Assembly (NCBI RefSeq): GCF_000568255.1
Contig: NZ_KK037166.1
Coordinates: 2,665,429-2,722,448, forward strand
Direction of reading: 5' to 3'
Length of the DNA stretch: 57,020 nucleotides
DNA from: Kutzneria sp. 744
GTDB lineage: Bacteria; Actinomycetota; Actinomycetes; Mycobacteriales; Pseudonocardiaceae
The translations under genes were made by a program, and so were the position numbers. The notes under the pieces are model-generated. The model had not been told where the DNA came from. It worked only from the letters and a program-made list of their open reading frames with translations, and did not search any database. Of the stretch, positions 8,190-35,281 are shown piece by piece; position 1 is the stretch's first letter; each line of letters starts with the position of its first letter.

Positions 8190-8563
8190 CCGACGTCACC
8201 GCCCGCGACCGATTCCTGCAATCGCTGGTCCTCGCCCGCGGCGACGCCGACCAAGTGGGCACGCGCGACCGGGAGTTCGTGCGTGCTCTGCTGGACTTCG
8301 GCTCGGAAACCGACGGCAACACCGAGTGCGTCGAACGCGTCGGCCTGGCCGTGCTGCCGCAGCTGCACGGCAGTGGCCCAGCCGGTTTCGCATTGCGGCA
8401 CAGTCGAATCGCGGTGGCCGACGTGCTCAACGCGGCTGAAGGCGCTCCGGTGCCCGATCAAGTCACGGCCGAGTTCCCCGATGTCACGCAGGAGGACTGG
8501 GACGCCGTCCTGCAGCTGGCCACGTTGATCCTCGTCGCGTTCCAAGCACCGCCAAGCCCGTAG
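8186..8563 (+). CDS. Probable immunity protein for the orphan tip
   Basis: The 125-aa acidic protein starts at ATG 8186, overlapping the stop of the orphan tip by four bases (ATGA), so translation is likely coupled. It appears mostly helical with no membrane segment. The tip/immunity pairing is inferred from position and from the acidic character opposite a basic tip. Retaining the immunity gene would protect the cell from sisters that still deploy the old tip. I do not recognise its family. It ends 12 bp from the convergent stop of the next gene. Confidence 0.5.
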   Translation: MTDVTARDRFLQSLVLARGDADQVGTRDREFVRALLDFGSETDGNTECVERVGLAVLPQLHGSGPAGFALRHSRIAVADVLNAAEGAPVPDQVTAEFPDVTQEDWDAVLQLATLILVAFQAPPSP

Positions 8564-15625: not shown

Positions 15626-18600
15626 GTGGCCGACGAAGGGATGAACGTGACGATCACGGCGGAGCAGGGCAAGCCCACGGACGCCGCTGGGACGCCGCCG
15701 ATGCCGCGTGTCCCGGAGTCCGGCCAGGTGGTGAACGTCCGCGGATCGACCTGGGCGGTCGCGGCGGTGCAGCAGCAGGGCCTGCCGCGGAGCCCGGCCG
15801 ACGAGGGCGCCGCTGGTCTGACGCACGTGGTGAGTCTTCAATCGTTGGAGGAGGACCGGCTGGGCCAGGAACTCACGGTGGTGTGGGAGCTGGAGGTCGG
15901 CCACACTGTCGCGCCCGACCAGGGCCTTCCGGAGAAGATCGATCCGGCCGCGTTCGACGATCCCAACACGCTGGCCGCGTTTGTCGACGCCGTGCGCTGG
16001 GGCGCGGTGACCTCGGCCGATGCCAACTCCTACCAGGCACCGTTCCGCAGTGGCGCGAACGTGGAGGCGTATCAGCTCGAACCGCTGCGCCGAGCACTTC
16101 AGTCTTCGCGGACGAATCTGCTGCTCGCTGACGACGTCGGTCTTGGCAAGACCATCGAGGCCGGTCTGGTGATCCAGGAGCTGCTGCTGCGCCATCGTGC
16201 CCGGTCCGTGGTGATCGTCTGTCCGCCGAGCCTGGCGCTGAAGTGGCAGGACGAGATGCGGGAAAAGTTCGGTCTGGACTTCGTCATCGTCAACAGCGAC
16301 CTGTTGGCGCGGGCGCGACGTAGCCACGGTTTGGCCGCGAACCCGTTTCGGCTGTTCCCCAGGGTGATCGTCAGCATGTCGTGGCTGCCGACCCTGCGTG
16401 CGCAGCGGCTGTTGCGTGACGTATTCGCTGACGTCGCGGACACTGCCTCGGCCCGGCGGTTCGCCTTTGACGTTCTCGTGGTCGACGAGGCCCACCATGT
16501 CGCGCCGGCGAGCCCGACTACCGCGCCCGGCCGGCGTGGTTACGCCGTCGACAGCCAGCGTACGACGGCCACGAAGGCGCTGGCGGACAAGTGCGAGCAC
16601 CGGTTGTTCCTGAGCGCGACCCCGCACAACGGCTACTCGGAGTCGTTCACGGCGCTGTTGGAGATGATCGACGGACGGCGCTTCAGCCGGGGCGCGAATC
16701 TCGACGAGCGGGCGTTGCGGGAGGTCGCGGTCCGGCGGCTGAAGACCGAGCTGCCGGAGAAGGACTTCCGCAAGCGGGAGCTCAAGCCGATCGTGTTTAC
16801 GACCAGCGAGGATGAGCAGCGCCAGTTCGCTCTGCTAGACCGCATCCTCACCGACAGCGCACGCGCGAATGGCAAGGGGCGTTCCGGCGGCCTGGTAGCG
16901 ATGCTGCTGAAGAAGCGTTTCCTGTCCAGCCCCTGGTCGTTCGCCCGCACGCTGGAGCTATACGAGCAAGCCGCTAGCACCGGCCGTCAGCTCGAGCTCG
17001 ACGACGAGGAGCAGTACTACGCCGAGGTGCTAGGCAGCGGCCAGTCAGACGAGGAAGAAGGCGCCACCGAGCACCCCGAGTTCACCGCACTCCGACACAG
17101 CAAGGGCTCCGACCCTTTGGCGACGGCCACCGGACGCGAGATCGAATCGTTGATCGAGTGGGGCTCCCGCTACGAGCACCGGCCGGACTCACGACTGGAA
17201 GCGCTGATCAAGTTCCTGGACGCGACCTGCCGCCCTGATGGCCGGACGTGGATCAACGAGCGAGTGGTGGTGTTCACCGAGTACGCCGCCACATTGGAGT
17301 GGATCGTCGATGTCCTGACCCAGCGGGGTTACCGGGACGTGCTGGCCACCATCCAGGGCTCGACCCCGACCGAGGAGCGCGAGCTGATCCGGGCGCAGTT
17401 CACCGAGGACCCCGCCAAGCACCCGGTGCGGGTGCTGGTCGCGACCGACTCGGCCGGCGAGGGTATCGACCTGCAGGACCACTGCCACCGGCTGGTCAAC
17501 TTCGACATCCCGTTCAACCCGTCGCGGCTGGAGCAGCGGATCGGCCGGATCGACCGCTACGGCCAGCGGAGCATCCCGCAGATCTATCGGTTCGTGCCCG
17601 AGTCCGCCGACTCCCAGTACGCGCGCGACCTACGGTTCCTGGTGGAGCGGATCGCGGACAAGATCGGGACCGTCGCCGCGGACCTCGGCTCGGTCAACCA
17701 GGTGGTCGACTTCGAGATGCGCAACCACTTCGACCCGGCGACGGGAGGCCGCAAGGTCAAGCCCGCGGCGCCGGACGACGGCAACGCGGTCATCACCCGC
17801 GCGCTCGCCGGTGGTCTTGAACTCAACCGCCGGCTCACCGAGCTGTCCCGCACCTACGACGAGCACAAGGTGGAAATGCACCTGACCCCGGCGAACGCCC
17901 GCCGGGTCGTGGACACCGCGCTCGCGCTCACCGCCCAGCCCCCGCTGCTGGAGGACTTCTCCTTCGCCCAGGACACCGACGCGGCCGTGTTCGCCGTTCC
18001 AGGGCTGGGGTCGGCGTGGCAGCCCGCGCTGCGTGGTTTGGACACCCGGCTGGAGCCCGACACGCTGCGACCGATCACCTTCGACGACAAGGCCGCGCAG
18101 GGCCGGCACGACCTGGTGCACATCCACCTCGGCCACGCCCTCATGCAGCGCGCCACCCGCGTACTGCGCAGCGCCCTGTTCGGGATCGACTCCCCAGTCC
18201 ACCGGGTGACCGCCGTCGTGGCGGAGGGCCTTCCCGAGTCGTGCGTGGCGGCCGTGTCACGGCTGGTCCTGGTCGGCCGCGGCGGACTTCGCCTGCACGA
18301 GGAGGTCTTCCTCACCGGCATCCGAGTGCACGGCAACACCATGTCCGAGGCGAAGGTGGAAGAAGTGCTTGATGCGACCCTCGACGCGGAGAACCTGTCC
18401 CTCGCCGCGGAGGACGTGCGCACGTCACTCGCCAACCTGTGGAACGCCGAGGATTCGCGACTACGCAACCGTTTGCTAACTGCCATGGCCCGCAAGGCCG
18501 AGTCCCGCCAGACCCAGGTCACCGAAGCGCTCCAGAAGCGCCGGGACTCCGATATCGCGAGGGTGCGCGAGATTTTCGGCGCGTTCCGGATCAATCTGCG

Positions 18601-18853
18601 CGAGTCCCGCGATCGGCTGTCGGGGGAAATCCGTGCCGAAGAGGAGAAGCTGTTCACCGATGACCAGCAGGCACAGCGCCGTCGGGACCTACGGGCGATG
18701 GAGGACCGGCTGGTGAACCTGGACGACGAAGAACAGCGGGAGATCGCCACGATCGGCGAGCGCTACCGCGACATCCGGCCACACGTGTCAGCTGCGGCCG
18801 TCGTATTCGCGCTCACCCCCGCCGATGCCGAGACCGGGAAGGTGCGGGCATGA
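15626..18853 (+). CDS. drmD: DISARM class 1 SNF2-like helicase DrmD
   Basis: This 1075-aa SWI2/SNF2-type ATPase starts at GTG 15626 behind GGGAGAAGGA. Walker A is LLADDVGLGKTIEAG (about 163-177) and the DEAH box VVDEAHH is near 287. The C-terminal helicase lobe has ATDSAGEGIDLQ (about 607) and the arginine-finger motif QRIGRIDRYGQ (about 637). The tail is charged coiled coil (EEKLFTDDQQAQRRRDLRAM, about 1010). DrmD heads class 1 DISARM operons and is thought to help DrmA/DrmB handle incoming DNA. Its stop overlaps the drmMI ATG by four bases. Confidence 0.9.
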   Translation: MADEGMNVTITAEQGKPTDAAGTPPMPRVPESGQVVNVRGSTWAVAAVQQQGLPRSPADEGAAGLTHVVSLQSLEEDRLGQELTVVWELEVGHTVAPDQGLPEKIDPAAFDDPNTLAAFVDAVRWGAVTSADANSYQAPFRSGANVEAYQLEPLRRALQSSRTNLLLADDVGLGKTIEAGLVIQELLLRHRARSVVIVCPPSLALKWQDEMREKFGLDFVIVNSDLLARARRSHGLAANPFRLFPRVIVSMSWLPTLRAQRLLRDVFADVADTASARRFAFDVLVVDEAHHVAPASPTTAPGRRGYAVDSQRTTATKALADKCEHRLFLSATPHNGYSESFTALLEMIDGRRFSRGANLDERALREVAVRRLKTELPEKDFRKRELKPIVFTTSEDEQRQFALLDRILTDSARANGKGRSGGLVAMLLKKRFLSSPWSFARTLELYEQAASTGRQLELDDEEQYYAEVLGSGQSDEEEGATEHPEFTALRHSKGSDPLATATGREIESLIEWGSRYEHRPDSRLEALIKFLDATCRPDGRTWINERVVVFTEYAATLEWIVDVLTQRGYRDVLATIQGSTPTEERELIRAQFTEDPAKHPVRVLVATDSAGEGIDLQDHCHRLVNFDIPFNPSRLEQRIGRIDRYGQRSIPQIYRFVPESADSQYARDLRFLVERIADKIGTVAADLGSVNQVVDFEMRNHFDPATGGRKVKPAAPDDGNAVITRALAGGLELNRRLTELSRTYDEHKVEMHLTPANARRVVDTALALTAQPPLLEDFSFAQDTDAAVFAVPGLGSAWQPALRGLDTRLEPDTLRPITFDDKAAQGRHDLVHIHLGHALMQRATRVLRSALFGIDSPVHRVTAVVAEGLPESCVAAVSRLVLVGRGGLRLHEEVFLTGIRVHGNTMSEAKVEEVLDATLDAENLSLAAEDVRTSLANLWNAEDSRLRNRLLTAMARKAESRQTQVTEALQKRRDSDIARVREIFGAFRINLRESRDRLSGEIRAEEEKLFTDDQQAQRRRDLRAMEDRLVNLDDEEQREIATIGERYRDIRPHVSAAAVVFALTPADAETGKVRA

Positions 18854-21800
18854 ACCGTCGAGCCGCGCCCACCGGAGCCGACCTACACCGCCGATGGCTG
18901 GAACTCGTCGACACCGACGGCCCGTTCCTCGCCATACCCGCGCTCAGGCGGGTATGGCCGCAAGGCATACCGGTGCCGGCCAAGGACGCCATCACTGCAC
19001 TGAAAGACGCCAAGGTCGCGTTTGAGAAGGCATGGGAGAACTGGGACACACGACGGGACGACGCCGCCGCGCTCGAGTTCTACCGTCAGGAGCGGGATAC
19101 CTGGGCGGATGTCGTCCTGCGAGACATGCTCGGGTGGCGCGACTCCTACACCGCCGCCACCGTGGGTGACCAGGTGCGGTCTCCCGACCATGCCGTCACC
19201 GTGCGCGCGAGCGGCGCCCTCGTACACGATGACACGATCGGCGCGCTGATCCTCGTCATCGATCCGGTCGACTCCCTGCGCGATCCACTTGACGACGGGT
19301 GGGCGAACACCCCGATCGACCGGCTCGAAGAGTTGCTGCGCGCCAACGCGGTCCCAATCGGTCTCGTCACCGACGGCCGGTGGTGGGCGATCGTCAGCGC
19401 TCGCAAGGAAACCATGGTCGCGTCGGGTGTCGTGGACGCGCAGACGTGGATTGAGGAACCGCAAACCCGCGACGCCTTCATCGAGTTGCTCCAGCGCCGC
19501 CGGCTGCTCGGCGGCAAGCCCGAGGACCGGCTGACCGCGCTGTTCGGCGAGTCGGTTGCCGCCGCCGAGGAGATCACCGAGGCACTGGGCACGCAGGTCC
19601 GCCGCGCCGTCGAGCTGATGGTGCAGGCGCTGTCCGAAGCCGCGCTGGCCGCGGACGGCCTCGATCCCCTGCCCGCCAAGCGAGCGGACGTGTACGAGGC
19701 GGCCGTGACGGTGATGATGCGGGTGGTGTTCCTGCTCTTCGCCGAGGAACGCAACTTGCTGCCCCAAAGCAGCCTGTTCACCCTCGGCTATGGCATCAGC
19801 GAGGAGTTGAACGCGCTCGACGCCCGCGCCCGCGAAGAAGGCAGCGAAGCCCTCGACGCCACCCACCTAACCTGGCACCGCCTCCTCGCCACCTCACAGG
19901 CGCTGTACCGGGGAGCGTCCTTTGAAGACATTCGACTGCCGTCGTACGGTGGCTCGCTGTTCGACTCCGGCCGGTTTCCGTTCCTCGCCACGCGCGGTCC
20001 ACAAGGGACATTGGCCATCACGGTGTCAGACCGCGTGATGCTGGAGGTGCTGCGCGCCGTCCAGTTCGCCAAGCTCAAGGGGCAGCCCGCTCGGCGAATC
20101 TCCTTCCGGGACATCGATGTCGAGCAGATCGGCTACATCTACGAGGGCCTGCTCGGCTACTCGTGCGCCGAGGTCGACGAGGTGACCGTAGGTCTGATCG
20201 GCAAGGAAGGCGAGGAACCGGAGATCCCCCTCGCGGTGCTGGAGTCGCTCGCGACGACCAAGCGCGGTGACACCGCGCTGGCCGACGCGATCCTCGCGTG
20301 GGCTAAGGAGCACCAGCCCGCCGCTACCCCGCCCTCGAAGGCAGCGCTGGCCAAGGCCATCCGCGACAATAACAAGATCGAGGACGCCGAACGCGCTCTG
20401 CGCGCGGCGACCTCGGATGCCGAGCTGCGAGACAGGCTGCGGCCGTTCGTCGGGATCATCCGCCGCGACCTGCGCAACAAACCCTTAGTCGTAGTGCCCG
20501 GCGGTGTGCTGGTGGTCGAGACGCCATCACGAGCGACGGCGGGCGCTCACTACACGCCCCGATCGCTCGCCGAGGAGGTTGTGCTGCACGCACTGGAATC
20601 CCTCGCCTACGAACCCGGACCGCACCAACAGGTAGACGGTTGGGTGCTGAAGGAGTCGTGGCGGATTCTCGACCTCAAGGTCGCCGACATCGCCTGCGGC
20701 TCGGGTGCGTTCCTCGTCGCTGCTGCCCGTTACTTGGCTGAGCGATTGGTGGAGGCGTGGCAGCGTGAAGGCGCGGCCGTCGGTACACCGCACGAGCAGA
20801 TGACACACGCCATCCGAACCGTGGTGGCGACTTGCCTGTACGGGGCGGACATCAACGGCATGGCCGTCGAGATGTGCAAACTATCGCTCTGGCTAGTGTC
20901 GCTCGACCCGAAACTGCCGTTCTCTTTCGTGGACGACAAGATCCTGCACGGCAACTCCCTGCTCGGCCTCACCGACGTCCGGCAACTGAAGTATCAACAC
21001 ATCGATCCTGACCTCCCACGGCAGATGCCGTTCCAGCCCGACGTCGACAGCACGCTGCAGCGCGCGGTCACGTTGCGCAGGCAGCTCGCAACCGAGGTCA
21101 ATGACGCCGACCCGCAGCGCTCGGCGACCACCAAGCGCCGACAGTGGCGGGAGTACCGCGATCTCGTCGCGGAACTGACCGAAATCGGCGACGCGGTGAT
21201 CGCCACCGGACTTCGGCACGGCGGCAAGCCGGGCAAAAAGCTGAACTCCGCGTACACAGATCTCAGTTGGGCGCTGAACCTGGCGCACAACGCTTCCGAC
21301 CGCGCCATGCTCGACGGCATCCTCGACGCCGGACTCACCCCAAGCGTACGGACCGACTACCAACGCTGGAAACCGCTCCACTGGATTCTCATGGTGCCGG
21401 ACGTGATGGAACGTGGCGGCTTCGACGCTATCATCGGCAACCCGCCATTCCTGGGTGGACCGAAGGTTTCGTCAGCGATAGGACCCAATTTGCGTGAGTG
21501 GCTAGTCAATGTGCTGGCCAATGGCTTCAAAGGCAAGGCCGATCTCGTTGCCTACTTCTTCCTTCGTGCCAACTCTCTATTGTCCGGTCGTGGAAACCTT
21601 GGGCTCGTCGCAACGAACTCTATTGCCCAGGTTGACACCCGTGAAGTTGGTCTCGACCGGATGGTCGCGGACGGCTTCACCATCGTGCGATCGATTCAGA
21701 GCAGGCCCTGGCCTGCCGCTGGCGCCAACCTCGAATTTGCTGCGGTGTGGGGCAGTCGCAGTGCCATCCCACCTGAAGTGCCACGACTGGCGGACGATGT

Positions 21801-22833
21801 CAGAGTAGAGAGAATCTCCACTCTTTTGGAGCCCGCCGGGCGGGTAGAAGGCATGCCGATGCGACTGTTGGAGAACGCCGGCATTTCTTTCCAAGGGTGT
21901 ATAGCACTGGGTATGGGATTCGTACTGGAGCCTGACGAAGCTGCCGCATGGATTGAGGTCGATCCGAAAAACGCCGAGGTCCTTTTCCCCTACCTTAATG
22001 GCGAGGACCTGAACTCCCACCCCGATGCGTCGCCGTCCCGCTGGATCATCGACTTCAGGGGTCGTTCAGATCAGGAGGCACAGCGTTACCGGCTGCCATA
22101 CCGGCGACTGTATGAAACAGTCAGGAGTGAACGACTCAAGAAGCCGAAGGCCGTACGCGAGGCTCCTTGGTGGCTTCTCTGGCGACCTCGCGAAACACTG
22201 AGGAGAGCGATCGTCGAACTGAACGAGGTTCTTATAATCACGCGGCACAGTAAGACGGTCATGCCGCTGCGAATTTCTAAGGGGATGGTCCCAAGCGAAG
22301 CTACTGTCGTGTTCGCGACGGGCTCATTTGCGGATCAGGCGGTGTTGTCTTCGAGCCTGCATCAAATGTGGGCTATTAAGTACGGTTCAGGGATACGTGT
22401 TGACCCGCGTTACACGCCGTCCGGCGTGTTCGAGACCTTCCCTCGCCCCAAGTCGGCCGACCGACTGGTGGAGATCGGGCGAGTATTGGACAGTGAACGG
22501 CGCGAGATCATGTTGCGACGGGAATGGGGGGTGACCAAACTGTACAAGCTCGTCAACGACCAGGACACCGCTGACTCGGCAGATCCGGATGTGGCGCGGA
22601 TGCGGGAGATTCACGTCGCCCTCGACCGAGTCGCGATGGATGCCTACGGCTGGGGCGATGTGCCGCTGAATCACGGATTCCACGCGTACCGACAGATGAC
22701 TCGGTGGACGGTCAACCCGGAAGCGCGTGTCAAAATCCTGGACCTTCTGCTGGAGGAGAATCACCGCCGGGCCGCTGCTCAGGGTGAGGCGCCCCCACCA
22801 TCAGACGATGAGGATGAGGGGGATGACGAGTGA
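18850..22833 (+). CDS. drmMI: DISARM adenine-specific DNA methyltransferase DrmMI
   Basis: The 1327-aa protein has the N6-adenine methyltransferase motifs: YTPRSLAEEVV (about 567), SAM-binding motif I VADIACGSGAFLVAA (about 610) and catalytic motif IV IIGNPPF (about 861). The long N-terminus (1-500) resembles type IIG/PglX-like proteins, and the region after NPPF should hold target recognition. In DISARM this enzyme marks host DNA as self. From about 21480 to 22500 the sequence has visibly more A/T third positions than the flanks, suggesting an exchanged recognition domain. The acidic C-terminal tail ends in a GTGA overlap with drmA. Confidence 0.9.
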   Translation: MNRRAAPTGADLHRRWLELVDTDGPFLAIPALRRVWPQGIPVPAKDAITALKDAKVAFEKAWENWDTRRDDAAALEFYRQERDTWADVVLRDMLGWRDSYTAATVGDQVRSPDHAVTVRASGALVHDDTIGALILVIDPVDSLRDPLDDGWANTPIDRLEELLRANAVPIGLVTDGRWWAIVSARKETMVASGVVDAQTWIEEPQTRDAFIELLQRRRLLGGKPEDRLTALFGESVAAAEEITEALGTQVRRAVELMVQALSEAALAADGLDPLPAKRADVYEAAVTVMMRVVFLLFAEERNLLPQSSLFTLGYGISEELNALDARAREEGSEALDATHLTWHRLLATSQALYRGASFEDIRLPSYGGSLFDSGRFPFLATRGPQGTLAITVSDRVMLEVLRAVQFAKLKGQPARRISFRDIDVEQIGYIYEGLLGYSCAEVDEVTVGLIGKEGEEPEIPLAVLESLATTKRGDTALADAILAWAKEHQPAATPPSKAALAKAIRDNNKIEDAERALRAATSDAELRDRLRPFVGIIRRDLRNKPLVVVPGGVLVVETPSRATAGAHYTPRSLAEEVVLHALESLAYEPGPHQQVDGWVLKESWRILDLKVADIACGSGAFLVAAARYLAERLVEAWQREGAAVGTPHEQMTHAIRTVVATCLYGADINGMAVEMCKLSLWLVSLDPKLPFSFVDDKILHGNSLLGLTDVRQLKYQHIDPDLPRQMPFQPDVDSTLQRAVTLRRQLATEVNDADPQRSATTKRRQWREYRDLVAELTEIGDAVIATGLRHGGKPGKKLNSAYTDLSWALNLAHNASDRAMLDGILDAGLTPSVRTDYQRWKPLHWILMVPDVMERGGFDAIIGNPPFLGGPKVSSAIGPNLREWLVNVLANGFKGKADLVAYFFLRANSLLSGRGNLGLVATNSIAQVDTREVGLDRMVADGFTIVRSIQSRPWPAAGANLEFAAVWGSRSAIPPEVPRLADDVRVERISTLLEPAGRVEGMPMRLLENAGISFQGCIALGMGFVLEPDEAAAWIEVDPKNAEVLFPYLNGEDLNSHPDASPSRWIIDFRGRSDQEAQRYRLPYRRLYETVRSERLKKPKAVREAPWWLLWRPRETLRRAIVELNEVLIITRHSKTVMPLRISKGMVPSEATVVFATGSFADQAVLSSSLHQMWAIKYGSGIRVDPRYTPSGVFETFPRPKSADRLVEIGRVLDSERREIMLRREWGVTKLYKLVNDQDTADSADPDVARMREIHVALDRVAMDAYGWGDVPLNHGFHAYRQMTRWTVNPEARVKILDLLLEENHRRAAAQGEAPPPSDDEDEGDDE

Positions 22834-25800
22834 ACGCCCCGCAGGCCCCGGAGTACCGGTTGGAGCACGAGCCGGACGGGCGGTCGCTTACGGTACGGGA
22901 AAACCTGGTTGACATCCTGGAACGGGAGTTGCTCGGCCCGGCGAACGGCCCCGAAGAAGTGCTCGACGGTGTGCCGGATGTTGCCTACCTGGTGGGGCGG
23001 ATCGCGCCAGTGCGGTTGGCGTCCGGCCGGGAGGACCCGTCGGACGCCAACGAGGACGAGGCGGCTACCGACGTCGGTGACGCGACCGACGCTGATGGGA
23101 GCCGGGGAGTTCCGGTCACCGCCGTAGACGAGAGCGGTGCGGGGGCGGACGAGGACAGCGTCGAGGATCAGCCGCAACAGCGCGGTCTGATGATCCCAGC
23201 GTCGATGGGGTTGCGCTGCCAGATCCCCGACGACTTGGCCGAGTTCACCGTGACCGCTTCGTGGGGACAGTACGAGCCGACCAAAGAGAAGCGGGAGAAC
23301 AGCGAAAATACCGTTCGCCGGTACAAGCGCGCACCCATCGAGATCAAGAAGACGATCAGCGTCGCCAAGCTCGACCCCGCGCAGACGACGACGATCCACC
23401 TGCGGGACACCGTTGTGCTCAGGGTGGACCGCTACGACGACGTCGAGGGCGGGACGAAGCTGATCGAGGTGGCGCTGTGCAACGATCGAGTGGCACCGCG
23501 CAAGATTCCCGTCAACGCCTGGCTATATCAGACAAAACTGCTGGTCGAAGCGGATGGTCACGAGGTTTTCCTACCGGTTACCGACAGGCTGACCGATACT
23601 CGCCAGGAGCGGGACGACGAGCTGCGGCGCCTAAGGCTCCAGTACCGTGATCGGCTGGAGTTCGCCATCGGGCGCACCTGTTCGGTCGACTGGAACGCGT
23701 CCGGCGAGATCCGGCGTGCCAGTGCCGTGTGGACGACGTGGTTGCCAACGGTGCAGACCCCGCAGACCACGGCCGAGGAGATCGGGGCGGCGCTGCTGGA
23801 TATGCGGACACTGCAAGCCGCCAGCCGCGAGGAGCTGCGGACTGGGCTGGAGCCCATCGTCGCCGGATACCGCACCTGGCTCGACAAGCAGCTCACCACG
23901 GCCGAGGCGCTGCCTGAGCATCTGCGTGAGGACGGCGTCGAACTGGTGCGAGAAGCGCAGCAGGTGCAACGACAGCTCGCGGATGGCCTTGACCACCTGC
24001 TCGCTGACGACGAGGCGCTACGGTGCTTCCGGTTCATGAACCGGGTGATGGCCGACCAGCGCATCCAAACGCAAGTGGCACAGCGCCGGGCAGGCAATCC
24101 CGGCGAGAGCATCGACCACGCGCGGGCGGCGATCCTCACGCAGGGGCCGAAAGCGCACTCGTGGCGCACGTTCCAGTTGGCGTTCGTACTCATGCAGCTG
24201 CCGATGCTGACCGACCCGGCGGCACAGCGGCGCTCCAGCAATGACCCGAAGGCCCAACTGCTGTTCTTCCCCACCGGTGGCGGCAAGACCGAGGCGTACC
24301 TCGGGCTAGCCGCGTACACGTTCGCCATCCGGCGGCGCCAGGGCATCGTGTCCACACCGGACGGTCCGCTGGACGGCAATTCCGGGATCGCGGTGCTGAT
24401 GCGGTACACACTGCGACTACTCACCGCCCAGCAGTTCCAACGCGCCACCTCCCTCGTGTGCGCCGCGGAGTTGGCCCGGCTTGACGACGTGGCCACATGG
24501 GGGGCCGAGCCGTTCCGGATCGGGCTGTGGGTCGGAACGGACGTGAGCCCGAAGCGGTTCGACGAAGCTGAACAACAGCTGACGCGGGCGAACAACGCCG
24601 GCGGCAACTACCGGCTGACCGTGTTGCAGATCCAGCGGTGCCCCTGGTGTGGCACCCGGATCGGGCCAGGCGACGTCAAGGCCAGGCCGGAGACCCGTCG
24701 CGTGCACGTGTACTGCGGGGACGACCTGGCCGAGTGCCCATTCGCCGAGGGCGGCGTGTCGGCCGAGGGGCTGCCGGTGCTGACGGTGGACGAGGAGATC
24801 TACCGGCTCGTGCCCGCGTTCCTTATCGCGACGGTCGACAAGTTCGCCCGGCTGGCGCGCGAGGGCGAGGCGGCATCCCTGTTCGGGTATGTGTCGCGGA
24901 AGTGCGAGCGACACGGGTTCGTTCACCCTGACTACAAGCACTGCGACATCAAGGACGGCAACAAACACCCGGCCAAGGACGGCCTGCCCGCAGCCGCGGT
25001 GCGTCCCGCTTCCCGGCTGCGCCCGCCGGACTTGGTCATCCAGGATGAGTTGCACCTGATCACCGGTGCGCTCGGGACCACAGTCGGGCTGTTCGAGGTC
25101 GCCATCGACGTGATGAGCACGTGGCGAACCGCTGACAATCGTACGGTGCGGCCATTGCTGGTCGCGTCCACAGCGACGGCACGCAACGCCGCCGACCAGG
25201 TCAAAGCGTTGTACGGGCGGGATATCACGATCTTTCCACCGCAGGTGCTGGACGCTGGCAACACGTTCTTCTCCAAGGAAGAACCGATCTCGGACAAGTT
25301 CCCCGGACGGCGTTACGTCGGCCTGTCGACCACGGGCGTCCGCCTGACCACCGCCGAGATCCGGGTAGCCGAGGTGCTGATGGCAGCGGGCCAACTGCTG
25401 CTCGACCGGTCCGGCGAGGCGGCCGATCCGTACCTGTCGCTGGTGGCATACTTCAGCGCCACCCGCGAGTTGGCGGGCATGGCGCGGTACATGGGCGACG
25501 ACATCCAGACCGCGCTCGCCAAACGCCGCCCGTGGTCGCTGCTGCCCAGCCGGACCGGCACCGACTTCGGTTCGCTTCACGTCGCCGAACTCACCTCGCG
25601 GGTAGCCAGCGCCGATATCACCGCGACGCTGGACCAGATGGCCGTGACCTTCGAGCCCAGGTTCGACTCCACGGCCGGCAAGCGCGAACTGCGGGCATCG
25701 CGCGAGGCGAAGAAGCCGGTGCCCACGCGCGAGGTCGCTCCGTTCGATGCGGTGCTGGCCACGTCGATGCTCCAGGTAGGTGTGGACGTCACCCGGCTCG

Positions 25801-26510
25801 GGTTGATGCTCGTGGTCGGCCAGCCGAAGAACACCGCCGAGTACATCCAGGCGTCCTCGCGCGTCGGTCGGGACGCAGCACGGCCGGGCCTGGTGGTGTC
25901 GCTGGGAAACTGGGCACGACCGCGCGATCTGGCGCATTTCGAGCAGTTCCGGCACTACCACGAGACGTTCTACGCCCAGGTCGAGGCGTTGTCGGTCACG
26001 CCGTTCTCGGCGACCTCGCTCGACCGTGGCCTGGACGGCGTACTGGTCAGCGCGACACGGGTCCTGCAAGCGGCGGAGACACAAGGACTCTCCCCGGAGC
26101 ACAACGCGGGCGGCATCGACAGTCGGCGCGACTTCGTCGTCGACCTCATCGACGCACTGGTCAGCCGGGTGCTGAGCGCGTCGAACGAGGACGCCGCCCG
26201 CCGGGCGCAGGACCAACTGATGAACCGCCTCGACCACTGGGAGAAGCGCCGCAAGTACTTGGCCGACCACCGAAAGTCGCTGGTCTACGAGAAAGTCACC
26301 GACGACACACGACACGACGCGCTGATGATGAGCGCGGAGAACGCCAAGTCCCGTGCGGACTCGCGGGACGCGCCGCCGTTCGTCGTGGCCAACTCGATGC
26401 GAGAGGTGCAGCCGGAGATCAACCTGCTCGTGAGCCCCATCAAGGAGAACCTCGTCTACATCGCGCCGCCCGGAGCACCCCGATGGGAACCACCTCAGGA
26501 GAACCCGTGA
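22830..26510 (+). CDS. drmA: DISARM helicase-domain protein DrmA
   Basis: The 1226-aa protein starts at GTG 22830. Walker A is LLFFPTGGGKTEAYLGLAA (about 480), the Walker B/DEAH-like box is VIQDELHLITG (about 736), and helicase motif VI is ASSRVGRDAARPG (about 1009). Residues about 605-690 contain cysteine pairs (CPWCGTRIG, then YCGDDLAECPF) that suggest a zinc-binding insert. The N-terminal 300 residues are DISARM-specific and begin with a strongly acidic stretch. DrmA forms the DNA-loading complex with DrmB. The gene overlaps drmB by four bases (GTGA). Confidence 0.92.
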   Translation: MNAPQAPEYRLEHEPDGRSLTVRENLVDILERELLGPANGPEEVLDGVPDVAYLVGRIAPVRLASGREDPSDANEDEAATDVGDATDADGSRGVPVTAVDESGAGADEDSVEDQPQQRGLMIPASMGLRCQIPDDLAEFTVTASWGQYEPTKEKRENSENTVRRYKRAPIEIKKTISVAKLDPAQTTTIHLRDTVVLRVDRYDDVEGGTKLIEVALCNDRVAPRKIPVNAWLYQTKLLVEADGHEVFLPVTDRLTDTRQERDDELRRLRLQYRDRLEFAIGRTCSVDWNASGEIRRASAVWTTWLPTVQTPQTTAEEIGAALLDMRTLQAASREELRTGLEPIVAGYRTWLDKQLTTAEALPEHLREDGVELVREAQQVQRQLADGLDHLLADDEALRCFRFMNRVMADQRIQTQVAQRRAGNPGESIDHARAAILTQGPKAHSWRTFQLAFVLMQLPMLTDPAAQRRSSNDPKAQLLFFPTGGGKTEAYLGLAAYTFAIRRRQGIVSTPDGPLDGNSGIAVLMRYTLRLLTAQQFQRATSLVCAAELARLDDVATWGAEPFRIGLWVGTDVSPKRFDEAEQQLTRANNAGGNYRLTVLQIQRCPWCGTRIGPGDVKARPETRRVHVYCGDDLAECPFAEGGVSAEGLPVLTVDEEIYRLVPAFLIATVDKFARLAREGEAASLFGYVSRKCERHGFVHPDYKHCDIKDGNKHPAKDGLPAAAVRPASRLRPPDLVIQDELHLITGALGTTVGLFEVAIDVMSTWRTADNRTVRPLLVASTATARNAADQVKALYGRDITIFPPQVLDAGNTFFSKEEPISDKFPGRRYVGLSTTGVRLTTAEIRVAEVLMAAGQLLLDRSGEAADPYLSLVAYFSATRELAGMARYMGDDIQTALAKRRPWSLLPSRTGTDFGSLHVAELTSRVASADITATLDQMAVTFEPRFDSTAGKRELRASREAKKPVPTREVAPFDAVLATSMLQVGVDVTRLGLMLVVGQPKNTAEYIQASSRVGRDAARPGLVVSLGNWARPRDLAHFEQFRHYHETFYAQVEALSVTPFSATSLDRGLDGVLVSATRVLQAAETQGLSPEHNAGGIDSRRDFVVDLIDALVSRVLSASNEDAARRAQDQLMNRLDHWEKRRKYLADHRKSLVYEKVTDDTRHDALMMSAENAKSRADSRDAPPFVVANSMREVQPEINLLVSPIKENLVYIAPPGAPRWEPPQENP

Positions 26511-28531
26511 CCGTCGATACCCGGTTCGTCTATGACGCCGCGACCGCCGTCGACCCGCTGGGCGACGCGGAGCGCGAGGCCGAGAAGGCGACCAAGCACA
26601 ACCGCGCGAAGGTCGGCTCGGGTCGCCCGTCGTCGCTGCTCTACACGTACGGACCTGGCTCGATCATGGACCTGCCGCAGTTCACGATCATGTCAACTGG
26701 CCTGGACGACTGGGATCGAATCTGGCGGCGCCGCGACGGCATCCCGCAGATCCGCGCTCCCCGGTTGCGCGAAGTCGTGGGCAAGCTGCTCCGGTCCCGC
26801 GACGTGCAGTTGCGCCCGCACCCGTGGCAGCCGAAGAAGATCAGCCTGTCCACCGAGGGCAACGACCTCGGCGTGCCCGCACGAGTGTTCCCGCAATGGC
26901 TGCGCTGCACCGGATGCGACATGCTGGGCACGGTTTCGCAGTTGGCGTACACCAACACCCACCCGTTCCGCGCCGACCTGGCCTGCTTCGAACACGCCAA
27001 GTGCACCGGCAGGTCGGGCAACCGGACCCGTAAACCGGCCCGGCGCACAGCAGTGCCCGCCCGGTACCTACTGGCCTGTGTGGACGGGCACCTCGACGAG
27101 TTCCCATACGACGAATGGGTACACCACTGGAACCGTTGCCCCCAGGCGGAGTTCCCGGCATTGAAAATGGTTGACCGCACCGCGGGCAAGGGCGCATCGG
27201 CCGTGATCGGGTGCGAGTCATGCGGCGCACGGCGAGGGATGAACGAGGCTCAGGGTGAGGCTGGCAAGAGCAAGCTTCCACGCTGCCGTGGCCGCCATCC
27301 CCACCTCGACGCCTTCGAGCCGCAGGGGTGCCGCAACGAAGCGCGGCTCATCCTCGTCGGCGCGTCGAATCTCTGGTTCCCGGCGACGCAGTCGATCATC
27401 GTGATGCCCGAGTCGTCGCAGGAAGAGGCCGGCGACCTCGCCGCGCGCATCCGCGTGGCATTGGGCGAGAAGCTCGCCAAGTACGCCGACGACCTGGACA
27501 CCCTGCGGGACGTGCTCGACGGCAAAGTGGACGTCTCCGAACTCTCGGACGACAAACTTGCCCAGGCCGTCGCGACGGCTCTCCTGCCGCCGGAGTCGGC
27601 CGAGGAACTGGACGCCTGGGCCAAGCAGTGGGATCCGGTGGACCTGCTCGTCCCGGAATGGCAGTACCTGCTCAAGGATCCGCTCGGGCTCCGGCACGAG
27701 GACGAGGTAAGCGGGCTTACGCTGTCCCGGCGGGATCGTGGTCCCGAGCTGCGACCGGAGATCACCAGGGTGCTGGCCGTCGAACGGCTGCGCAAGGTCA
27801 ACGCGCTCGTCGGCTTCACCCGCATTGACGACATGGACCGGGTCGGTGACCTACCCCAACGCCTGGCCCCGCTGACCAGAACGCCGTACCCGGCGTGGAC
27901 GGTGGCAACGGAAGATCGCGGCGAGGGCATCTACCTCCAGCTCGACGAGGCAGCCGTGGCGGCGTGGGAAACGCGGATCGAAACGACGGACATCTGGACT
28001 GCCCAGCGAGACGCGCATCGGCGCAACTTCTACCGTCGCTTCTCCGAGACCGCGCAGGATGTCGACCCCGACACCCGGCTCAGGCCGCCGCGCTACTGGC
28101 TCATCCATACCTTCGCGCACGTACTGATCCGGGAATTGGCCATGACGTGCGGCTACTCCGCCGCCAGTCTGAGCGAACGGCTGTACGCCTGGCCCGAGTC
28201 CGGAGGCCGCGAAGCGGCTGCCGGACTGCTCATCTGCACGACCGCATCCGATAGCGACGGCACCCTCGGCGGGCTGGTGCAGCTCAGTGAACCCGACCGG
28301 CTCGAACGTGTTGTGTCCGGCGCGCTGTACCGGGCCACCCGGTGCTCCTCGGACCCGATCTGTGCGATGCGCACCCCGCAGGACCCTGAGGACTTTCTGC
28401 ACGGCGCCGCCTGCCACTGCTGTGTCATGGCGTCGGAGACCTCTTGTGAGAGGGCCAACCGGTTCCTCGACCGGCGCTTCCTCGTCGACCTCCCTGGGAG
28501 TGGTGTTGGGTTCTTCGGACGCGCCGATTGA
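26507..28531 (+). CDS. drmB: DISARM DUF1998 protein DrmB
   Basis: The start is GTG 26507 (VTVDTRFVYDAAT), overlapping the drmA stop, giving 674 aa; a longer open frame upstream merely shadows drmA. RPSSLLYTYGPGSIMDLP near residue 35 is typical of DrmB N-termini. Cysteine pairs at about 133-136 (LRCTGCD) and later (GCESCGARRG) suggest zinc binding. The C-terminal DUF1998 region holds a His/Cys-rich end (HGAACHCCVMASETSCERAN, about 630-650). DrmB partners DrmA and is autoinhibited until DNA is loaded in the studied system. The 3' end overlaps drmC. Confidence 0.92.
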   Translation: MTVDTRFVYDAATAVDPLGDAEREAEKATKHNRAKVGSGRPSSLLYTYGPGSIMDLPQFTIMSTGLDDWDRIWRRRDGIPQIRAPRLREVVGKLLRSRDVQLRPHPWQPKKISLSTEGNDLGVPARVFPQWLRCTGCDMLGTVSQLAYTNTHPFRADLACFEHAKCTGRSGNRTRKPARRTAVPARYLLACVDGHLDEFPYDEWVHHWNRCPQAEFPALKMVDRTAGKGASAVIGCESCGARRGMNEAQGEAGKSKLPRCRGRHPHLDAFEPQGCRNEARLILVGASNLWFPATQSIIVMPESSQEEAGDLAARIRVALGEKLAKYADDLDTLRDVLDGKVDVSELSDDKLAQAVATALLPPESAEELDAWAKQWDPVDLLVPEWQYLLKDPLGLRHEDEVSGLTLSRRDRGPELRPEITRVLAVERLRKVNALVGFTRIDDMDRVGDLPQRLAPLTRTPYPAWTVATEDRGEGIYLQLDEAAVAAWETRIETTDIWTAQRDAHRRNFYRRFSETAQDVDPDTRLRPPRYWLIHTFAHVLIRELAMTCGYSAASLSERLYAWPESGGREAAAGLLICTTASDSDGTLGGLVQLSEPDRLERVVSGALYRATRCSSDPICAMRTPQDPEDFLHGAACHCCVMASETSCERANRFLDRRFLVDLPGSGVGFFGRAD

Positions 28532-29261
28532 CCCCGCGGCGGCATGGGAACTGGGCCAGCGACTCACCGGGACCGAGGCGGGGTTGCTCGCGGACCGGCT
28601 CGCCGACGGCGACACCCTCACCAGCGCGCTGAAGGCTGTCGCCCCAGGGAACCGCGCGACGGTCCGGACGCTGCTGGCCGCCGGGTCGTCCCCGGCATCC
28701 CGCATCGCCGTCCTGCGAGCCATCGAAGGCGCACGGTCCGCCCCGACCTCGGCGACGCCCCTGTGGACGATGCCGGGACACCTCGCGCGCAGCGGGCCCC
28801 TCACCGCCTCCGTGCCGCACCTTGTCGACAGCGCGCGGCAGTCCATCACCTGCTCCACCTTCAACTTCCAGCGCTCCTCGGGACTGTGGCAAGCCTTGCG
28901 GCAGGCCGCCGCGCGGCCGGAGCTGGCCGTGCGGGTGTACCTCGACGCTGCAGCGGCGGGGCGGGGCGCGCCGACCGCATCCGAGGTCGCCGCGCACCTG
29001 AGGCCCGCCGTCGTTCTACGCACGAAGATCTTCGACGGCGCGGGCGTGCGCAACCACGCGAAGTTCCTCGCGATCGACCACCGATTCCTGCTGGTGACCA
29101 GCGCGAACTACTCGTGGAGCGCGGAGCACGGCAACGTCGAGTTCGGCGTGCTCGTCGACGACCGGAACCTCACCGAGGCCGTAGAGCACGAACTGCGGGA
29201 CGCTGAGCCCATGCTCTACGAGCGGGTTCCGCCTATCTTGACGAGGCCGACCGGCGCCTGA
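28500..29261 (+). CDS. drmC: DISARM phospholipase-D-family protein DrmC
   Basis: The start lies in a GTG-GTG-TTG cluster at 28500-28508 behind CTGGGAG; I use 28500, but TTG 28506 has better spacing. The ~253-aa product carries one PLD/HKD motif (NHAKFLAIDHRFLLVTSANYS, about 184-204) and a downstream EFGVLVDD. PLD nucleases usually dimerise to form the active site. DrmC is the accessory nuclease of DISARM. It overlaps drmB by about 32 bp and ends 53 bp from the convergent DUF6527 gene, with no obvious terminator hairpin between. Confidence 0.88.
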   Translation: MVLGSSDAPIDPAAAWELGQRLTGTEAGLLADRLADGDTLTSALKAVAPGNRATVRTLLAAGSSPASRIAVLRAIEGARSAPTSATPLWTMPGHLARSGPLTASVPHLVDSARQSITCSTFNFQRSSGLWQALRQAAARPELAVRVYLDAAAAGRGAPTASEVAAHLRPAVVLRTKIFDGAGVRNHAKFLAIDHRFLLVTSANYSWSAEHGNVEFGVLVDDRNLTEAVEHELRDAEPMLYERVPPILTRPTGA

Positions 29262-29314: not shown

Positions 29315-29752
29315 CTAACGTCGGAGCAGTTTCCGGAGCCAGGCAAGGGGGCTGCGCCCATCAGCGTCGATGGTTTCAGCGGTTTCTGGTTCATGCGCGG
29401 CGGCCTTGCGCCCTGCGAAGTACTGTTGTCGATCCCAGTCGTCACGTGTTCGGCCAGCCGCGATTCGCTTGTCGGTCCATGTGCCCGACCATTGGACCTG
29501 GTTCGACGTGACCCAGTAGTGCGAGCGACAATGGAACCCCCAGTTGCCGATTGAAGGGGTCAGCGACACGGTCTCACCGTCGTAGAACAGTTGCCAGTCG
29601 GCCGGGCTGATCGGCGTGACTACCTTGTTACCGCACCCGCAGGCGCACCGGTGCACGGCGGTGCGGTAGGTGATCGAGACGTAGAGCACCGCTTCGGCGA
29701 GCTCGCCGGGGATGTACTCCACGAACTCGTGGGTGATCGAGGTGTGCCTCAT
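29315..29752 (-). CDS. DUF6527-type zinc-binding protein of the ubiquitin-like cassette
   Basis: The 145-aa protein carries paired metal ligands: CACGCG near residue 37-42 and FHCRSH near 73-78, separated by the signature SPADWQLFYDGETVSLTPSIGN. This pattern fits a small treble-clef-like zinc domain. It starts at ATG 29752, overlapping the ThiF stop by four bases, so it is the third gene of the Ubl-E1 operon. In comparable cassettes this family sits beside ThiF and multiubiquitin genes; an E3-like or ligase-accessory role is my inference. Soluble; the C-terminus is basic. Confidence 0.7.
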   Translation of the reverse strand: MRHTSITHEFVEYIPGELAEAVLYVSITYRTAVHRCACGCGNKVVTPISPADWQLFYDGETVSLTPSIGNWGFHCRSHYWVTSNQVQWSGTWTDKRIAAGRTRDDWDRQQYFAGRKAAAHEPETAETIDADGRSPLAWLRKLLRR

Positions 29753-30933
29753 GGTGTTTGGTCGTCATTCAGCAATTGGTTGCCGCCGATGGTGTAGGTC
29801 GTGAACATCTCGTGCTCCTGGTCGAGATAGAAGCCATACAGCTTCTTCCACTTGATCACAGCCAGGACCGCGTTGAGCATGTTCAGATCAGCGGTCTGGA
29901 TGTTGCGGTCGTACTCGTCGTCTTCCTCGTCGCCGAACGGTATCCGCTGGTGGTCCCACACATGGGTGCGGTGCTCGGGTGTGCTCGCAGTGACCCGCAG
30001 AATGCCCCCGAGTGACTCGCCGACCCGGTAGACGCCCATGCCCGCGTCGATGAACGGGATCCCGAACTCCTCCAACTTCGTCACGATGAACTTCTTGGCA
30101 GGACCGGAGTCCATGGCCAAGAAGACGAAGGTCATCGCTCGCAGCTCGTCGATATTCGACTCGTCGACATGGACCGGGTGCGGAACGATGCCCCGTCGCA
30201 TGACCTCGTACATTCGCCGGTAGTACTCCACCTTGGTCGGAACGGCGTCGAGTTCCTGGACCGAGGCCGCGCCCGGTGCCCGGAACGCGTTGTGTGCGTA
30301 CAGGATGTCGCGGTCGTAGACGTGGATCTCGCCGATCGGCGTCTTGACGATCAAGTCCAGGATGAACGAGCCCGTTCCGCCAAGGCCGACAAGGGCGACC
30401 TTGGGTAGGGCCAGCTTGTCGGTGATCGAGCTGATCCTGGCGCGGCTGGATGCCGAGTCCAGGTAGCGGAACACCGAGTCCTGCTCGGCTACCTTCACGA
30501 CGGGGAAGGTCCGAGCTGTCGCTGCGGGATCGATGACCTGCGCCGGCCCGGACAGCATGTTCACGTAGGACGTGATCTTGGCGTGGTAGTCGGCGTAGTA
30601 GCCCACAGGCGGCTTGCTCGAGAACGTGCAGTCCGCGACAAGACCCTCGGCGACTTGGATCGCGCCGGTGCTATTGATGATCTTCGTCAGCGGGGAGCCG
30701 TGCTGGTCGCACGGAATCCCCCCGGCGAACGAGACAACATGATCACTCGGTCTGATCGTGCTCGAGCCGCTCGTGGAGAGCTCGGAGATGATCACGCCGT
30801 ATGCGACCTCCCGTGTGGACGTCACGTACGGCACATGCTTGACCAGCAGATAGTTCGACCGGATTTCGAGGTCGAAACCCTCGTCGCGCAGCCGTGCAAG
30901 ATCCGAACTATGACTTACCAGTGGGTGTGACAT
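29749..30933 (-). CDS. ThiF/E1-like adenylyltransferase with N-terminal accessory domain
   Basis: I place the start at ATG 30933 (MSHPLVSHSS), giving 394 aa and a 26-bp overlap with the Ubl gene; a start at 30972 would overlap more. Residues 1-170 form a separate domain (DUF6791-like in my reading) with FAGGIPCDQHGSPL around C75. Residues 178-390 are a ThiF Rossmann domain: ATP-binding GLGGTG (183-188) and VYDRDILYAHNAFRAPGA (about 205-222), where E1 enzymes have their D, N and R contacts. Only two cysteines exist (C75, C102), neither in the usual E1 position. So it may only adenylate, or pass the Ubl to C75. Confidence 0.8.
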   Translation of the reverse strand: MSHPLVSHSSDLARLRDEGFDLEIRSNYLLVKHVPYVTSTREVAYGVIISELSTSGSSTIRPSDHVVSFAGGIPCDQHGSPLTKIINSTGAIQVAEGLVADCTFSSKPPVGYYADYHAKITSYVNMLSGPAQVIDPAATARTFPVVKVAEQDSVFRYLDSASSRARISSITDKLALPKVALVGLGGTGSFILDLIVKTPIGEIHVYDRDILYAHNAFRAPGAASVQELDAVPTKVEYYRRMYEVMRRGIVPHPVHVDESNIDELRAMTFVFLAMDSGPAKKFIVTKLEEFGIPFIDAGMGVYRVGESLGGILRVTASTPEHRTHVWDHQRIPFGDEEDDEYDRNIQTADLNMLNAVLAVIKWKKLYGFYLDQEHEMFTTYTIGGNQLLNDDQTP

Positions 30934-31189
30934 CGAAGATCGTTCCCTGCTTCTTGACTTCAACGACGCCACCCTCGACCAGGATGCCCTCGTGCTTCGG
31001 ACCCTTCGCCTTGCGGTACGTCACCGTGAACGTGCTGTCCGGGGACGGCCACACCGGGAAGGCGATGGCGACCACCTCGGTCCACGACACCTCCTCGTGC
31101 GGGACCACGGCCAACTCGCCGTTGACGACGATGGCGAACCCCGTCTTGTCCGCGGTGTCCTCGACCTCAACGTGCGCAGCTTCGTTCAT
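30908..31189 (-). CDS. Single-domain ubiquitin-like protein (multiubiquitin family)
   Basis: The start is ATG 31189 directly behind a strong AAGGAGG site; a longer frame to 31300 is not needed. The 93-aa product is a beta-grasp-like protein: FAIVVNGELAVVPHE, then STFTVTYRKAKG, then KHEGILVEGGVVEVKKQGTIFDVTPTGKS. The ending matches the multiubiquitin family, whose repeats end in a similar TxKS, but only one repeat is present. It ends in GKS rather than GG, so conjugation would need trimming or an unusual terminus. As first gene of the operon it is the presumed substrate of the adjacent E1. Confidence 0.72.
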   Translation of the reverse strand: MNEAAHVEVEDTADKTGFAIVVNGELAVVPHEEVSWTEVVAIAFPVWPSPDSTFTVTYRKAKGPKHEGILVEGGVVEVKKQGTIFDVTPTGKS

Positions 31190-31318
31190 CTCGACCTCCT
31201 TCGCGGCCGGCGGCCACGTCGTGTTCGCTTGCCCGCGTGTTCGCGAACATGCGTACAGAGTAGCACCGTGGCGTGGGGTGGGTCTTCGACACGCCGGCAT
31301 GTACGCTCGTAAGCGGAC
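31190..31318. promoter_or_regulatory. Divergent promoter region with TGTTCGCGAACA palindrome
   Basis: The 129-bp gap separates the Ubl operon from the XRE/ImmA pair. It holds a perfect 12-bp palindrome TGTTCGCGAACA (31238-31249), a preceding half-site GTGTTCGC (31221-31228), and a CATGT...ACATG pair near 31299-31320 close to the XRE start. These are plausible operators for the XRE protein encoded next door. Assignment is by position and symmetry only. Confidence 0.5.
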
Positions 31319-31699
31319 ATGTCGAACACACCCTCACGCCCAACACTCGGCCAGCGCATACGGGACGCCCGTGTGGCTGCCGGGCTGTCCCTGCGCGAGC
31401 TAGCGCGCCGCATCGAGCGTGCGCCGTCGTACCTGAACGACATTGAGCACGACCGACGCGTCCCGTCCGAAGCCGTCGTGATGCAGCTCGCCTCCGCGCT
31501 CGACCTCGATGCTGATCTCCTGCTCGCCGCGGCCGGTCGGGTCGGCGAAGGGGCGGAGCGCTACATGCAGTCAAATCCCACGGCCGGCGTGCTGTTCCGC
31601 CGAGTCTCCGACGCCGGCCTTGGCGAGCGGGACTTGAAGCACCTGCTCGAGCAAGCCGAGAAGATCATCAACAAGCGAGACCAGGGCACAGGCGAGTAA
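31319..31699 (+). CDS. XRE-family transcriptional regulator
   Basis: This 126-aa protein has a clear HTH at residues 10-65 (RIRDARVAAGLSLRELARRI, then APSYLNDIEHDRRVPSEA) and a short helical C-terminus that may dimerise. It starts at ATG 31319 and precedes the ImmA gene by 4 bp. XRE/ImmA pairs control mobile and defence loci: the XRE protein represses and the peptidase cleaves or inactivates it. Divergence from the Ubl-E1 operon suggests control of that operon. Confidence 0.88.
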   Translation: MSNTPSRPTLGQRIRDARVAAGLSLRELARRIERAPSYLNDIEHDRRVPSEAVVMQLASALDLDADLLLAAAGRVGEGAERYMQSNPTAGVLFRRVSDAGLGERDLKHLLEQAEKIINKRDQGTGE

Positions 31700-31703: not shown

Positions 31704-32444
31704 ATGCAGTGGTACCAGGGACCTGAGGGCGATCAACGAATCTGGTACGAACCGGACGAGATTGAGCGTATCGCAGAGGATGAACTCCGTCGCGCCAGTC
31801 TTATGCCGTCGCTCAGCGAACCGGTGACGGACCTCGAGCGTTTCATTGAGAGTCACCTCCACGCCGAACTCGATCAGTATGCCGAATTGCCTGATGACGT
31901 TCTGGGGCTCACGCAGTTTCAAGCTGGTCGACGGCCAGTGGTCTCCATAAACAGTAAACTGACCGAGTCGGCCGAAGCGGACACTGCGAACCCTGGCGCC
32001 GTCGGTCGTTGGCGCGCCACCATGGCTCACGAAGCGTCGCACATTCTGCTGCATCGGTATCTATTCGATCCCGAGATGGCTCAACTTGTCGGTGCCCAGG
32101 TTGGTTCCAACGCACCCGGCGAGCGCGCAGGATTGATGCGCTGCCTATATCGCGATGTCGTGCCGGTGAGCACGCAGGACGCCAGTCAGACCCGACGGCG
32201 ACGAGACTGGCGTGAGATTCAGGCCAATCGTGGCATGGCAGCGCTTCTTATGCCAGACCGCCCATTCAAACGTCTCGCGTTTCAACAGATGGCCAACGTC
32301 GGCTTGGTCACCGTCTCCACCGGCACTGCCGCTGCGGATACACTCATGGCCGAAATGGCCGAAATATTCAATGTCTCAAAGCAAGCAGCCATGATTCGGC
32401 TTGAAACCTTGCAAATCTGCACACCCGGTAGCGGCGAGAAATAG
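31704..32444 (+). CDS. ImmA/IrrE-type metallopeptidase
   Basis: The 246-aa protein carries the zinc motif HEASH (109-113) in ATMAHEASHILLHRYLFD, a typical ImmA variant with small residues in the middle. The N-terminus (IWYEPDEIERIAEDELRR) and the C-terminal WREIQANRGMAALLMP segment match family features. It is the likely protease partner of the upstream XRE protein, responding to an unknown signal. The base composition is lower in GC than the DISARM genes, hinting at separate acquisition. Confidence 0.85.
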   Translation: MQWYQGPEGDQRIWYEPDEIERIAEDELRRASLMPSLSEPVTDLERFIESHLHAELDQYAELPDDVLGLTQFQAGRRPVVSINSKLTESAEADTANPGAVGRWRATMAHEASHILLHRYLFDPEMAQLVGAQVGSNAPGERAGLMRCLYRDVVPVSTQDASQTRRRRDWREIQANRGMAALLMPDRPFKRLAFQQMANVGLVTVSTGTAAADTLMAEMAEIFNVSKQAAMIRLETLQICTPGSGEK

Positions 32445-35036: not shown

Positions 35037-35281
35037 TCATTCGTGCTGGTGCGCGGGCGACCGCACTTCGCCCCGACCCGACCGGAACTAGATGATCGCC
35101 CAGGGGGCCGGTGTCACGGCTGCCGCGCGGTCGAGGTCGGTCAGCCGTGGGTCCAGGCGGGGTCGGGGGAGCAAGCTTTGGATCGCTGGCTTCTGGCGGC
35201 AACAGACCCCCGGAGGGTGGTGACCGACCGCACCGCGTCGATGGTCTGCTGCCCTCGATCGTCGTGCATCATGGCTGCGAT

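Follow-up and report, generated by a model that had tools for sequence, protein, structure and literature searches.

An actinobacterial Ubl, E1 and DUF6527 cassette, probably a Bub-kind conjugation system with DUF6791 in the place of JAB

The window, a stretch of 57,020 nucleotides from Kutzneria sp. 744, carries on its minus strand an actinobacterial three-gene cassette for a ubiquitin-like protein (Ubl), an E1-like protein and a DUF6527 protein, located beside DISARM genes. It probably encodes a Ubl conjugation system of the broad Bub kind (operon type 6e), from a branch in which DUF6791 is found instead of JAB, and it would operate under a CapH/CapP-like switch. The cassette is a further member of this known but under-studied kind, which is spread over many bacteria. 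The features are as follows.

15626..29261, plus strand: DISARM genes drmD, drmMI, drmA, drmB and drmC, a convergent neighbour outside the cassette (PADLOC, NCBIfam)
29315..29752, minus strand: DUF6527 protein, 145 aa, with C36-x-C38-G-C40 ... C75-x2-H78 (Pfam PF20137, E 4.1e-25)
29749..30933, minus strand: E1-like protein, DUF6791 plus ThiF, 394 aa (Pfam; NCBIfam NF004805; kept 26-nt overlap)
30037..30420, minus strand: ThiF adenylation domain, residues 172-299 (Pfam)
30454..30906, minus strand: DUF6791 domain, residues 10-160 (Pfam limits; alignment of 39 E1s; AlphaFold pLDDT 84)
30709..30711, minus strand: codon of C75, TGC on that strand (sequence)
30908..30933, minus strand: 26-nt overlap of the Ubl and E1 genes, in which the Ubl tail codons contain the E1 start (comparison of loci)
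30908..31189, minus strand: Ubl, a single Multi_ubiq beta-grasp domain, 93 aa, tail ...DVTPTGKS (Pfam PF14452, E 1e-9)
31238..31249, no strand: 12-bp perfect palindrome TGTTCGCGAACA, a candidate operator between the Ubl and capH-like genes (sequence)
31319..31699, plus strand: capH-like HTH regulator, divergent from the cassette (PADLOC capH, E 2.8e-11, best of 14 rows)
31704..32444, plus strand: capP-like ImmA/IrrE peptidase (PADLOC capP, E 1.5e-8, sole row; Peptidase_M78, E 1.6e-8)

The gene content read by the initial annotation was borne out by Pfam. The putative beta-grasp protein ending in TPTGKS matched Multi_ubiq above the family cut-off and over one stretch only, the ThiF protein with an extra N-terminal domain consists of DUF6791 (E 1.3e-55) and ThiF (E 1.4e-9), and the Cys/His-rich third protein is DUF6527. 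The genes are also coupled as proposed, with overlaps of 26 nt between Ubl and E1 and of 4 nt between E1 and DUF6527. The E1 reading frame (29749-30972, minus strand) opens at 30972, and the start common to its homologues is the ATG at 30933. Because this start matches the 26-nt Ubl-E1 overlap of the homologues, it is the probable start of the window E1, which would give 394 aa and make the earlier numbering of C75 correct. A start codon giving exactly this overlap is available in 35 of 38 loci, which are related and therefore do not represent 35 independent events; other in-frame starts are also present in several loci, and the overlap is 41 nt in L028, L029 and L046. The two frames are interlocked in the window through an Asp/Asn-Val pair of the Ubl tail, whose codons carry the E1 start, and this pair occurs in most of the 38 loci.

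No E2 or JAB was matched by Pfam in the three cassette proteins at E values up to 1, in agreement with the initial reading of a cassette without either as a separate protein. Prok-E2_E is absent both as a fused and as a separate domain: the Ubl is one domain of 93 aa and the E1 N-terminus matches DUF6791 only. A lone Prok-JAB gene stands 1.5 Mb from the cassette. The best NCBIfam model for the E1, NF004805 (529.8 bits versus a cut-off of 352), is titled 'hypothetical protein'; in PADLOC, the Ubl and DUF6527 proteins had no match at all, and the E1-E2 models matched the window E1 over essentially the ThiF part only.

A survey of the three-gene set found the trio in identical order in all 38 loci with enough sequence, that is, not cut at a contig end, and in several phyla. 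The full set of 41 loci, which includes the window and contains close relatives, comprises Actinomycetota, Cyanobacteriota, Alpha-, Beta- and Gammaproteobacteria, Bacteroidota and Bacillota; DUF6527 is present in 41/41 and the Ubl in 38/41, the three others (L031, L034 and L035) being cut by the contig end. Since the loci were found by E1 similarity, these counts describe the DUF6791-type E1 branch only. They leave out L005 (a near copy of L004), L006 (the window's own locus), L009 (the same as L004), L037-L041 (repeats) and the later matches L049-L065 (repeats, fragments or distant), and the E1 alignment has 39 rows after exclusion of the incomplete sequences of L034 and L035. Of 396 genomes sampled from the phylum, three contain PF20590 (own genome included), and a set of 291 genomes from the order to which a Nostoc belongs gave two (centre genome included). 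PF14452 was detected in 11 out of 296 genomes from the phylum. The E1 was matched by 116 of 72,556 plasmid records, 27 of which, picked for spread, supplied the plasmid loci of the DUF6791 type; 25 of them are annotated (all except L044 and L048). No relative of the E1 was found in 50,697 phage records or in a single-sequence scan of IMG/VR, and five alignment scans of IMG/VR recovered an identical set of 4 contigs on which the E1 is complete or almost so, along with fragments and distant ThiF matches. DUF6527 extends beyond the DUF6791 branch, as the control genome of Caulobacter vibrioides has DUF6527 without DUF6791; no mention of DUF6527 was found in the literature searched by name.

The initial annotation considered the cassette a candidate for an incompletely described system, yet it is not new as a system, because operon type 6e (polyUbl), predicted in 2006, already combines a Ubl, an E1 with a substitute N-terminal domain and a metal-binding protein (Iyer, Burroughs and Aravind 2006, PMC1779556). 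According to the operon descriptions of that paper, type 6e has 1-3 Ubl repeats and a metal-binding third protein with the printed signature C-x3-C-x(35-38)-H-x2-C, and some of its E1s, with Frankia among those marked, carry an unnamed N-terminal domain instead of JAB, which the authors speculated to work analogously to JAB. The window cassette resembles that description in its single Ubl stretch (PF14452), within the range of 1-3 repeats, in its E1 with a non-JAB N-terminal domain and in its putative metal-binding third protein opening with C-x3-C; we infer that the substitute domain, X, of type 6e is DUF6791. In contrast, the inactive E2/RWD domain listed for type 6e is missing from the window cassette, and the last two ligands are reversed relative to the printed signature: DUF6527 of the window reads C36-x3-C40-x34-C75-x2-H78, with a spacer one residue short, and these Cys/His residues, with C-x2-H at the end, are kept in 41/41 loci. 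The cyanobacterial JAB-type relative L092 likewise reads C-x2-H in its DUF6527.

In a sequence search of the PDB, the best match to the E1 profile was Citrobacter BubCD (E 9e-11), over the ThiF part only, with a tRNA threonylcarbamoyladenosine dehydratase close behind (E 5.5e-10), so the preference for BubCD is slight. The JAB-E1 Bub operons, including that of Citrobacter BubCD (PDB 9ea4/9ea5), are reportedly treated by Ye et al. 2026 and Gong et al. 2025. The cassette shares with them the ThiF domain, the Multi_ubiq Ubl and the CapH+CapP or WYL regulators, and DUF6527 is also present in two examined JAB-type relatives; unlike them, it has DUF6791 in place of JAB and is missing Prok-E2_E. The DUF6791 type may already have been treated in the Bub literature. 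The sister operons of Synechocystis sp. B12 (L092) and Robbsia (L094) are ordered as a Ubl-Prok-E2_E fusion, JAB-ThiF and DUF6527, and the third of the sister loci examined, L093, encodes a ThiF protein of 313 aa that has no JAB, and no Ubl is annotated there. The Ubl end is thus buried in the fusion in L092 and L094, whereas it is free in the DUF6791-type cassette, and synthesis of the Ubl with its final end could be what allows the DUF6791 branch to dispense with E2 and JAB. Another Ubl operon, with a Ubl ending in DDDNS, lies at 6.33 Mb in the genome of the window (L082, G000:C1:6327000-6338500). The E1 of this operon, of 538 aa, aligns with BubCD over both halves (PDB 9ea4, E 4e-25); Pfam detected no JAB in this E1 and no E2 in a separate 126-aa protein of the operon, whose relative in L086 has a Prok-E2_E match that falls short of the cut-off (E 2.6e-4).

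Similar cassettes of other kinds were also compared. In the account of PMC4963859, the multiubiquitin cassette of Synechocystis pSYSX consists of Ubl, E1, E2 and a metal-binding protein with an adjoining XRE/DUF955 pair, and HTH and DUF955 neighbours occur at 70% of PF14452 genes. The window cassette is like it in the Ubl, the E1, the metal-binding protein and the adjacent HTH and DUF955 (ImmA/IrrE) pair, and unlike it in lacking an E2; the regulator pair is presented in that account as a toxin-antitoxin pair, whereas it is read here as capH/capP-like. On the one hand, Cap2 of CBASS is similar in joining an E1 to an N-terminal domain, but the window E1 has no recognisable E2. On the other hand, Bil systems are similar in Ubl conjugation, but the window cassette has no JAB or recognisable E2; BilABCD, as described in PMC11354881, has a separate E2, a separate JAB and a two-domain Ubl, in contrast to the one-domain Ubl here.

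The Ubl of the window matched the multi-ubiquitin protein of PDB 9cd2 by sequence (E 4e-5, aligned to both ends), and the solved protein ends in VTQTDKS. All 38 E1-adjacent Ubls have a terminal Ser and, at -4, either Thr or Ser, fitting [TS]-x-[KQRE]-S, and 10 of the 38 have Gly at -3 as in the window; an Ala end was seen in only 1 of 39 Ubl matches, the second match in L033 (tail NVDLTNNA). The terminal Ser is not unique to the DUF6791 branch: of eight further Multi_ubiq loci outside this type, L082 and L086 have DDNS ends, the remainder having a Gly end (L085, L087 and L088), an Arg end (L084) or a reading frame that continues past the Ubl (L083 and L089). A ThiS/MoaD-like carrier system instead of protein conjugation is highly improbable: ThiF domains serve sulfur carriers too, but neither a Pfam rhodanese match in the cassette nor a Gly-Gly end was found, and the tandem arrangement of three Ubls seen in L010 and L011 and the CapH/CapP-like regulator context also argue against it.

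The predicted adenylation residues G183, G185, G188, D207, D209, R218, K234 and D275 are kept in 39/39 E1s. The initial annotation had further proposed C75, in the extra domain, as the transfer cysteine of an E1-E2-like fusion, and this stood in part only. The window E1 has two cysteines, C75 and C102, which are found in 30 and 5 of the 39 E1s, respectively; position 75 is otherwise occupied by H (5), Y (2), F (1) or R (1), that is, the cysteine is replaced in 9/39 E1s of otherwise intact cassettes. A quick tree built without column 75 requires at least three state changes at this position, and the C75-less rows appear as a six-row clade plus L026, with L021 and L003 singly; because L003 comes from a metagenome-assembled genome, an error at its position 75 is possible. 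C75 is therefore possible as a transfer cysteine but not general, and the cysteine hypothesis survives for the clade of the window only. Cys-free transfer, in which S105 (or no enzyme nucleophile) would carry the Ubl as an ester and C75 would be accessory, is possible but doubtful. It is consistent with the conservation of H65, S105 and Y123 (each 39/39) and of K107 and K119 (each 38/39) in DUF6791, compared with 30 for C75, with the observation that the nine C75-less E1s have no other cysteine common to them all, L027 having a single Cys at 273 in the ThiF core, and with the oxyester chemistry of Bub, whereas the conserved Ser may be structural.

A C75-thioester E1-E2 fusion, with DUF6791 as a true E2-like domain and C75 as the catalytic cysteine, is likewise possible but doubtful. 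The excess of C75 over C102 agrees with it, as does the invariant H65, located 10 residues before C75; the gap from the HPN histidine to the cysteine of eukaryotic E2s is also 10 residues. AlphaFold predicted DUF6791 alone confidently from ten sequences (pLDDT 84), in the order helix, four strands, hairpin and helix, which speaks for such a fusion, while the full-length E1 modelled from six sequences reached pLDDT 40.7 and was discarded. Foldseek searches with the domain model gave 24 E2s, by title or chain length, among the best 50 of 549 matches (E <= 10), 15 of which were redundant UFC1 entries. However, none of the matches in the PDB or BFVD reached E <= 0.001, TM was <= 0.38 among the same best 50 of 549, and the model places H65 ahead of strand 66-70, whereas HPN comes after the fourth strand in E2s. 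The residues at 75 in the nine C75-less E1s and the changes on the tree also weigh against the fusion. Profile comparison by hhalign, with ThiF versus BubCD-like E1s as a positive control (99%), gave nothing for DUF6791 when it was compared with four E2-like proteins from JAB-type operons or with alignments of BubCD-like E1, DUF6527, Ubl and ThiF, and Pfam found no E2 in a set of 20 E1s with E values of up to 10 allowed. An E2-like fold of DUF6791 is thus only weakly suggested by the model, and the fusion is unproven. DUF6791 might instead be a stand-in for JAB, serving as a deconjugating or Ubl-binding domain with transfer proceeding without E2, which is unlikely. It does occupy the JAB position of the sister E1s L092 and L094 and has conserved polar residues, but its profile matched none of seven BubCD-like, JAB-type or other ThiF proteins, and the HxH...D motif of the JAB site is not conserved, because H65 is the only near-invariant His.

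The cassette is bordered by regulators of a type common to Bub operons, 219 of 544 of which adjoin CapW or CapH+CapP according to the text of PMC13373217, where phage protection by Bub operons is stated not to have been demonstrated so far. The cassette has ImmA/IrrE genes nearby in eight of the 25 annotated plasmid loci (L017, L024, L026, L027, L029, L042, L046 and L047) and WYL genes nearby in two (L018 and L019). The palindrome TGTTCGCGAACA is a candidate CapH operator; its conservation is weak evidence, because L001, in which it is identical, is very closely related to the window. All five genes are present in the neighbouring DISARM set, and a dedicated DISARM role of the cassette was rejected, as L001 has the cassette with capH/capP and no match to drmA, drmB or drmC in 12.7 kb. 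Divergent from drmD, the gene at 14463-15566 (minus strand) has capP as its best PADLOC row (E 3.1e-20), and its protein is perhaps a second CapP-like switch, at DISARM. After capP, the region 33216-38485 carries a gene for GmrSD type IV restriction and another resembling a type I methyltransferase, as part of a wider defence island. UvrD-helicase genes were noted in 10 of the 25 annotated plasmid loci (L010, L011, L012, L013, L014, L016, L020, L028, L043 and L045), and in L011, L014, L016 and L045 the cassette is also followed immediately downstream by a PD-(D/E)XK nuclease gene; the helicase/nuclease may be a partner or target of the cassette. PfkB kinase and 7-cyano-7-deazaguanine synthase genes adjoin a DUF6791-type cassette in L015 (genes at 654-2425) as well as a JAB-type cassette in L092 (genes at 6416-8237).

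For the reading preferred here, a Bub-kind conjugation cassette under a CapH/CapP-like switch, the following course could be envisaged. CapP acts on CapH by cleavage, and the regulator family suggests that DNA damage or infection would lead CapP to inactivate the CapH repressor, allowing the operon to be expressed. The Ubl would be produced with its final tail, so that no peptidase would be needed, and its C-terminal Ser carboxylate is predicted to be adenylated by the ThiF domain. The acyl group might then pass to the DUF6791 domain, standing in for a separate E2, with C75 as the acceptor in most members, or S105 or direct passage to the target in all; DUF6527 could be a zinc-binding recruiter of the target or of the E1. 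The more specific proposal, that Ubl is ligated without E2, JAB or an obligatory Cys, through a ready Ser tail and with DUF6791 as a hitherto unrecognised transfer domain acting via H65/S105/K107, C75 being gained or lost by clade, is rather speculative and seems somewhat unlikely as a whole.

The cassette would offer a small model for Ubl conjugation without the eukaryotic E1-E2-E3 relay. C75, S105, H65 and the terminal Ser are the residues by which thioester, ester and direct transfer could be told apart, and the C75-less members may serve as natural mutants for testing the transfer chemistry.
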